Source: a bacterium
Lineage (GTDB): Bacteria; Bacillota_I; Bacilli_A; RF39; UBA660
Direction of reading: 5' to 3'
Assembly (NCBI GenBank): GCA_029100545.1
Contig: JAQXPH010000025.1
Span: forward strand, 1 to 33,424
Length of the DNA stretch: 33,424 nt
Below the pieces are notes generated by a model, which was not told where the DNA came from, made no database searches, and was given only the letters and a program-made list of their open reading frames with translations. The position numbers and the translations under genes are program-made. This document shows, piece by piece, positions 20,666 to 22,863 of this stretch (position 1 is its first letter; every line of letters begins with the position of its first letter).

Positions 20666-22045
20666 CTAAAATTTGATTTTATCATTAATATATGAAGCAA
20701 CCTCTGAAATATTTAATGTAATTTGCTGCATTGTATCACGATTTCTTAAAGTTACGGTTCCATTATTTATTGTTTCATCATCAATTGTTATTGCAAAAGG
20801 TGTTCCAATAGCATCTGATCTTCTGTAACGCTTTCCAATATTACCAGTTTCATCATAACTACAATTAAATTCTTTAGTTAAATTCCTATAAATTTCTTTA
20901 GCCTTTTCACTATGAAATTTCTTTACAAGAGGAAGCACTGAAACTTTATAAGGTGCTAAGTATGGATGAAGTTTAAGAACTTCACGAATAGAACCATCCT
21001 CTAAAGTTTCTTCATTATAAGCATCACATAATATTGTTAAAAATAATCTTTCAACACCTAGTGATGGCTCTATAACATAAGGAATATATTTTTCATTAGT
21101 TTCTGGGTCTAAATATTTAAGACTTTCGCCAGAAAATTTTTCATGTTGACTTAAATCATAATCAGTTCTTGATGCTATACCCCAAAGTTCACCAAATCCA
21201 AAAGGAAAATTATATTCAATATCAGTAGTTGCATTACTATAAAAGCATAATTCTTCAGGACTATGATCTCTTGTTCTTAAATTTTCGTTTTTAATTCCTA
21301 AGTTTATTAAGAAGTCTATACATTTTTGTTTGTAAAAATTAAACCATTCAAGTTCAGTTCCCGGTTTACAGAAAAACTCTAATTCCATTTGTTCAAATTC
21401 TCTAACTCTAAAAATAAAGTTACCTGGAGTTATTTCATTTCTAAAACTTTTTCCGACTTGACCTATTCCAAATGGTACTTTTAATCTCATACTTCTTTGA
21501 ACATTTAAAAAATTAACAAATATTCCTTGAGCAGTTTCAGGTCTTAAATATATAGTACTTTTTGCTTCTTCAGTAACTCCTTGAAAAGTTTTAAACATTA
21601 AATTGAATTGTCTAATATCAGTAAAATCACTTTTGCCACATTTTGGACATGTAATATTATTTTCTTTAATAAAATCTACTAGTTTTTCATTACTCCAACC
21701 ATCACCAGTTTCACGTCCTTTGGTAAAATCTTCAATTAATTTATCAGCACGATATCTTGATTTACAATGTTTACAATCTACTAAAGGATCTGCAAAAGTT
21801 TTTAAATGACCTGATGCTTCCCATACTTTTGGATTCATTAAAATACCACTATCTAAAGAAACATTATTTTCATCTTCTTGAATAAATTTTTGCATCCAAG
21901 CATTTTTAATATTCTTTTTAAGTTCTGCTCCTAATGGGCCAAAATCCCAACTATTTGCAAGCCCTCCATAAATTTCGCTACCTTGAAATATAAAACCATA
22001 TTGTTTGCAATAATTTGTTAGCTTTTCCATTGTTAATTTTTCCAT
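20666..22045 (-). CDS. glyS: Glycyl-tRNA synthetase (single-chain, alpha2 type)
   Basis: '[35 protein letters not shown]', '[14 protein letters not shown]', '[25 protein letters not shown]'. Confidence 0.96.
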
Positions 22046-22184
22046 AATTTCCTCCTATAATTAAAAAATTCCTTTAAAAAAATAATATAGGGACGAATTT
22101 TAATCCGCGGTTCCACCCTAATTATTCCTTAAAGGAATCACTTTTATTTAATTATCGCTCTAGGATTCCAACCCCGTCATCGCT
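22046..22184 (-). promoter_or_regulatory. Compact T-box-like leader of glyS
   Basis: Minus strand T-box AGGGTGGAACCGCGG (22105-22119) with partner CGTCCCT, stem-III-like ATTCCTTTAAGGAAT and U7 tract (22076-22082). Only about 70-80 nt lie between predicted +1 and the T-box sequence. Confidence 0.8.
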
Positions 22185-22190
22185 AAAAAT

Positions 22191-22219
22191 ATTATAAACT
22201 AATATTTTATATTTTACAA
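22191..22219 (-). promoter_or_regulatory. Promoter for glyS leader
   Basis: Minus strand TTGTAA (22214-22219), 17 bp, TATAAT (22191-22196). Confidence 0.6.
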
Positions 22220-22236
22220 CAAAAAACACTATTTAT

Positions 22237-22863
22237 TTAGCGTTTTAGTATTCTTTTGTATTCAATTACTTTATCTTTTTCTTCTTTATTTATAACCTCA
22301 TTTAAATAACATGTAGAACAAAGGGGTACATAACTAACATCATTATCACCATCTATTGCTACTATATCACCATCATAAACAAATCTACCATTAACTTTTC
22401 TAGCATTAAATACTGCCGTTTCACCACATTTACAATTTACAGTTAATTCATTTTTACGATCAGAAAAACCTATTAAAGCCTCTGTCCCAGGAAAAAGCCT
22501 TCCTCTAAAATCACTTTTTAAAGCATAACATATTACCGTTATACCTACTTCATGAGCAAGCATCCAAAACTCAATTATTTGTTTTTCTGATAAAAATTGT
22601 GCTTCATCAACTAAAATTACTTCCGTATTTTTTATAAGGGAAATATAATTATCATCAAAAATAGAATCTTCACTACCAAGTAATATATCAACATTTGCAC
22701 TATCATTTGTTCTATTAATTACTGTATTTCCACCTTTTGTATCAATTAAAGGCTTTATAATTAAAACTTTGTGTCCATGTTTACGATAATTAAAGTTATC
22801 TTGTAAAAGTTTTGTTGTTTTACCACATTCCATTGTGCCATAAAATAATGTTAAATCTGTCAT
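22237..22863 (-). CDS. tdk: Thymidine kinase
   Basis: 'LFYGTMECGKTTKLLQ', 'VILVDEAQFLSEKQI', Cys pairs 'CKCG'/'CSTC'. Confidence 0.95.
   Translation of the reverse strand: MTDLTLFYGTMECGKTTKLLQDNFNYRKHGHKVLIIKPLIDTKGGNTVINRTNDSANVDILLGSEDSIFDDNYISLIKNTEVILVDEAQFLSEKQIIEFWMLAHEVGITVICYALKSDFRGRLFPGTEALIGFSDRKNELTVNCKCGETAVFNARKVNGRFVYDGDIVAIDGDNDVSYVPLCSTCYLNEVINKEEKDKVIEYKRILKR

Follow-up and report, generated by a model that had tools for sequence, protein, structure and literature searches.

In a 33,424-nt stretch of DNA from a bacterium of the family UBA660 (order RF39; contig JAQXPH010000025.1 of assembly GCA_029100545.1; hereafter the window) we analysed the leader of glyS, which encodes a single-chain glycyl-tRNA synthetase of 459 aa (22045-20666, minus strand). 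This leader is very probably a functional T-box riboswitch, specific for glycine and acting by transcription attenuation, whose stem I is ultrashort. The canonical stem I of T-boxes is about 100 nt long. A preliminary description had stated that such a stem I is absent here and that the promoter leaves no space for it, which our analysis confirmed, but it had also presented the leader as one without any stem I, and this did not hold. Judged from the sequences compared, stem I is present in miniature, as a 27-nt hairpin complete with kink-turn and specifier loop, and it is conserved with covariation throughout the family. This reading is based on the parts of the leader, their conservation and covariation, the position of the promoter and the complementarity of the terminator; from the conservation we infer the function.

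Structure and conservation of the miniature stem I

The miniature stem I (22183-22157, minus strand, as all features below) reads GC-GAU-GA-C-GGGG-UUGGAA-UCCU-A-GA-GC and is supported by a covariance model match, covariation and RNAalifold. It comprises a kink-turn (GC-GAU-GA ... GA-GC), a helix of 3-4 bp (GGG(G)/(U)CCU) and an apical loop, UUGGAA(U), holding the specifier GGA (22169-22167) with U22170 before and A22166 after it. The two GC strands with the 3-nt bulge and the tandem GA/GA are, by their sequence, presumably the kink-turn of the stem I base. The same genome encodes tRNA-Gly(UCC), with the anticodon loop CUUCCAA, as well as tRNA-Gly(GCC), both carrying U73, so that the specifier, read directly and in relatives, and the UGGA bulge of the antiterminator (22115-22112) fit tRNA-Gly(UCC) and its U73.

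We built a covariance model (R1) from the glyS leaders of 24 relatives. It matched the window copy, itself among the model sequences, with an E value of 3.2e-13, and at E <= 1e-5 it found matches in 230 of 291 family genomes and in 125 of 150 genera. In a sample of the order 184 of 241 genomes were matched, and every listed genome belonged to the same family as the window. These tallies are model matches, and some weak ones (such as G011, G206 and the second matches of G043 and G052) were read as full-length T-boxes; the true count of miniatures therefore lies somewhat below them. Eight weaker matches elsewhere in the class (E 2e-7 to 9e-6) were rejected as a sign of spread beyond the family, as on reading they proved to be full-length T-boxes belonging to glyS or to other genes. 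Wherever the gene downstream of a miniature was read, it was glyS or its operon.

Alignment of 94 copies gave 83 distinct rows, 82 of them full length. Over the whole structure we counted 208 double-change cells against 63 in shuffled alignments, with none of 500 shuffles reaching as high. Both the C-helix and the apical helix covaried, the latter in every pair, and pairing, at 97% in register, dropped to about 50% or lower once the partners were slid against each other. The alignment used (A2) was fitted to the model and hence favours the structure; RNAalifold recovered the same helix from a MAFFT alignment (A1) to which no structure had been supplied. All 82 copies carry a GGN specifier (GGA in 68, GGC in 13, GGU in one), which is preceded by U and followed by A in 81 copies each, within an apical loop of 6-8 nt in 80 of the 82 and most commonly of 7 nt. 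In full-length glyS leaders from beyond the family, of which 13 were parsed, some of the parses being doubtful, the base before the specifier was G in six, A in four, U in two and C in one. Within the genus of the window (L062, L065, L066) the specifier varies between GGC and GGA, and the sensed tRNA-Gly isoacceptor, as read from the specifiers, seems to differ between close relatives there.

Several observations weigh against a functional miniature. The window copy itself is weak, with a helix leaning on G-U pairs and an A/G combination at the third pair of the C-helix. Folded alone it prefers another hairpin (-5.8 versus -2.5 kcal/mol), and the apical helix appears in only 30 of the 82 copies folded in this way, by an energy model that contains neither kink-turn nor tRNA terms. 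The sequence U-GGA-A is likewise present in L041 and L054, the family's two full-length leaders, and the U and A flanks may therefore go back to inheritance and not to selection in the miniature. In known T-boxes pairing at the specifier is augmented through the distal stem I motif, stem II or the two together, and those of the terminator type generally depend on a long stem I to bind fast (PMC10482949, PMC7583486). Single-molecule fluorescence resonance energy transfer on glyQS further indicated that the elbow contact matters in the first binding step (PMC6197855).

Given these points, the leader might be vestigial, with stem I lost and the remnant acting as a weak or constitutive attenuator that does not read tRNA. 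The weak helix of the window copy would agree with this, as would a stem I far shorter than in the terminator-type T-boxes described in the openly licensed literature. However, kink-turn and glycine specifier are kept family-wide, and the helix, which would otherwise be free to decay, covaries, so that we regard a vestige as improbable. The preliminary description had named a degenerate version of a full-length leader as one case that would refute it; some 80 distinct relatives share the miniature and two (L041, L054) have full-length leaders, and a degenerate single copy is ruled out by the family-wide copies together with the covariation.

Terminator layout and proposed switch

Downstream of the miniature follow a single-stranded linker at the place of stem II (22156-22139, from alignments of relatives), stem III (ATTCCTTTAAGGAAT, 22138-22124, from the Rfam T-box match and covariation) and the T-box with the antiterminator (AGGGTGGAACCGCGG...CGTCCCTA, 22119-22088, from the Rfam match, motif search, comparison with tRNA-Gly and covariation). 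The 3' arm of the terminator, which by folding and pairing energies complements stem III, and its U6 run (22068-22063) occupy 22084-22063. A tract of seven U residues reported previously is indeed present (22082-22076), but it lies inside this arm and is not the U run of the terminator. The linker begins in most copies with a conserved AUAUA-like stretch (GAGC-N-AUAUA; A2 columns 42-47, about 22156-22151 in the window). C-helix and stem III are 12-19 nt apart in the 82 copies, with a median of 15 nt in alignment columns, and a search for stem II in the alignments of miniatures found none but only the linker.

In the usual T-box terminator the CGUCCCU arm pairs with a downstream copy of AGGG. 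Pairing analysis of the miniature leaders did not find this layout. Instead, the sequence ahead of the U run complements stem III with a mean of -10.9 kcal/mol versus -3.9 kcal/mol for shuffled arms, whereas the same arm scored -3.6 kcal/mol against the CGUCCCU antiterminator arm versus -4.1 kcal/mol when shuffled. In 73 of 80 leaders the terminator arm had more than half of its length paired with the region of stem III, helix A1 being kept, and a terminator with U run was predicted in nearly all members. According to the pairing model, we would see the OFF and ON states as extension of helix A1 versus formation of stem III.

The stem III-based terminator is present as well in L041 and L054, both full-length, among Clostridium-type glyS leaders in L094, L095, L101, L132 and L140, and within the window genome in the further leaders L001, L008 and L232; L248, L251, L255, L257 and L135 have the usual layout. 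As some full-length T-boxes share it, the stem III-based terminator is not special to the miniature.

We infer tRNA binding, two extra base pairs, an order of events and regulation as follows. The anticodon loop of tRNA-Gly(UCC) would pair with the apical loop of the miniature stem I in a kissing-type interaction, GGA with UCC, and the flanking U and A could add pairs to A37 and U33, giving 5 bp in total. Together with the kink-turn, a linker of about 15 nt would allow the 3' end of the tRNA to reach the UGGA bulge. Uncharged tRNA-Gly would then stabilise stem III and the antiterminator and glyS would be transcribed, while with charged tRNA stem III would be unzipped into the extended terminator hairpin and transcription would stop.

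Control might alternatively act on translation, as in the ultrashort ileS T-boxes of Actinobacteria, given that an ultrashort stem I with an apical-loop specifier is known from class III T-boxes, which are mostly translational (PMC10482949). This is very unlikely for the glyS leaders: nearly all members show a predicted extended hairpin followed by a U run, the Shine-Dalgarno sequence AGGAGG (22056-22051) lies past that hairpin, and stem II, which is required in class III, is lacking.

Upstream boundary, full-length relatives and other shortened leaders

The gap between tdk (stop at 22237) and glyS (ATG at 22045) comprises 191 bases. The best promoter on that strand, TTGTAA-17-TATAAT (22219-22191; 10/12 matches), has a predicted +1 near 22184 and ends 7 nt before the miniature stem I, although sites as good are common by chance in this region. 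Among the 78 leaders with enough upstream sequence for a promoter scan, 73 showed promoters with at least 9/12 matches ending 7-30 nt, most often 12 nt and with a median of about 12 nt, upstream of the hairpin; in shuffled upstream sequences such sites scattered out to 130 nt. From these predicted positions, transcripts would begin a few bases before the miniature, so that no longer stem I would be transcribed. The roughly 35 nt that had been reported where stem I is expected are not filler, but hold the miniature stem I. A terminator of tdk had been placed just upstream; by reading, a hairpin rich in A+T (AAAACGCTA-AATAAA-TAGTGTTTT) overlaps the stop codon of tdk, whereas the terminator scanner, which wants three G-C pairs, listed no terminator at the tdk end.

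T-box and stem III, both recognized in the preliminary description, are well supported by the motif AGGGTGGAACCGCGG at 22119-22105 without mismatch (0.01 matches expected by chance with up to 3 mismatches allowed) and by the match to the Rfam T-box model at 22249-22086 (E 1.2e-10, 52.2 bits). In the Rfam alignment the stem I part is forced onto promoter sequence, and the true 5' segment is left as an insert. A full stem I farther upstream, with the hairpin as a spacer or a product of chance, as the end-to-end Rfam match placing stem I on sequence up to 22249 might imply, is hardly credible, because this part covers the tdk end and the promoter and aligns poorly, promoters stand directly before the hairpin in nearly all relatives, and the hairpin covaries. 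The leader scored under the gathering cut-off of RF00230 (93 bits), which none of 20 miniatures scored reached. The full-length ileS leader of the window, described before as having a full stem I, does span the whole Rfam model, and it also falls short of the cut-off (86.1 bits); part of the shortfall is therefore due to lineage rather than truncation, the cut-off being strict here. Matches of the glyS leader to SpR19 sRNA and snoRNA were dismissed as chance (E 0.8-3).

The glyS T-boxes of other families in the class (L244, L245, L248, L251, L255, L257) have a full stem I, which among the family glyS leaders read was kept by only two members, L041 (G011) and L054 (G044). In a GlyS tree these two nest among the miniatures, with weak support and three changes. 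Their history may include regain, repeated loss or leader transfer, and the miniature may have arisen more than once.

Shortening had been considered specific to glyS, which proved incorrect, as the genome also carries shortened leaders before tyrS and hisS. The tyrS leader (L008:1501-1620; G000:C33:75708-75827) contains the hairpin GUUGAUGAAGACUUACAACCUUCGGAUGUU with UAC in its loop and, behind it, a reduced stem IIA/B. Similar short tyrS leaders include L278, L280 and L302 and were found in G007, G028 and G045, most relatives having full-length ones. Short hisS leaders (L232, G000:C31:92985-93110; L317 in G007; L325 in G043) show GAC in the hairpin loop and stem IIA/B, the GAC being probably the Asp specifier of a candidate hisS-aspS operon. 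Since these leaders are also cut down, stem I was apparently shortened more than once in this lineage. Like the glyS miniature they are of the terminator type with stem I reduced to a codon-in-loop hairpin, but they keep the reduced stem IIA/B (Tyr, Asp) and occur in few genera, whereas the glyS miniature extends across the family and lacks stem II.

Comparison with known T-box classes

Four T-box classes were listed in 2023: class I with long stem I and stem II, the glycine-specific class II with long stem I and without stem II, class III with a short stem I, the specifier in a 5-6 nt apical loop and a required stem II, and the intermediate class IV (PMC10482949). The miniatures carry the hallmarks of T-boxes, namely the T-box with a UGGN-type bulge fitting the discriminator, and a specifier in stem I. 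With class II (Bacillus subtilis glyQS) they share the glycine specifier, the kink-turn at the stem I base and a linker in place of stem II, followed by stem III, antiterminator and terminator. In class II stem I is long, bears a distal double T-loop motif and has its specifier in an internal loop, whereas the 27-nt miniature ends at a specifier in the hairpin loop. The full-length L041 and L054 resemble the miniatures in kink-turn, U-GGA-A specifier, length of the linker, discriminator and a terminator based on stem III, but they keep about 65-90 nt of stem I above the specifier. With class III (Nocardia farcinica ileS) the miniatures have in common a short stem I without distal motif and the specifier in the apical loop; class III, however, has been described for Ile, needs a stem II with S-turn, is mostly translational and has a loop of 5-6 nt, whereas the miniatures have a glycine specifier, lack stem II, show a predicted terminator and carry a loop that is most commonly 7 nt long.

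The Tbox Database (TBDB) mentions class I matches with truncated stem I, with no detail in its main text (PMC7778990), and single members may therefore already be listed. As an undescribed class the miniature holds for the openly licensed literature, and there may be earlier sightings in subscription papers. The standard covariance-model cut-offs overlook this whole group of leaders. A family-wide class with neither distal motif nor stem II offers a natural test of the augmentation rule, and it represents a very small tRNA sensor for engineering. Whether it forms a fifth structural class, in which a minimal kink-turned hairpin aptamer would need neither elbow-binding motif nor stem II and would recruit tRNA-Gly fast enough for control of transcription by nothing more than a 5-bp pairing between loops, is in our view an evenly balanced question. 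In its parts, the miniature combines the apical-loop specifier of class III with the lack of stem II of class II in a terminator-type leader, and is thus outside the published four-class scheme.
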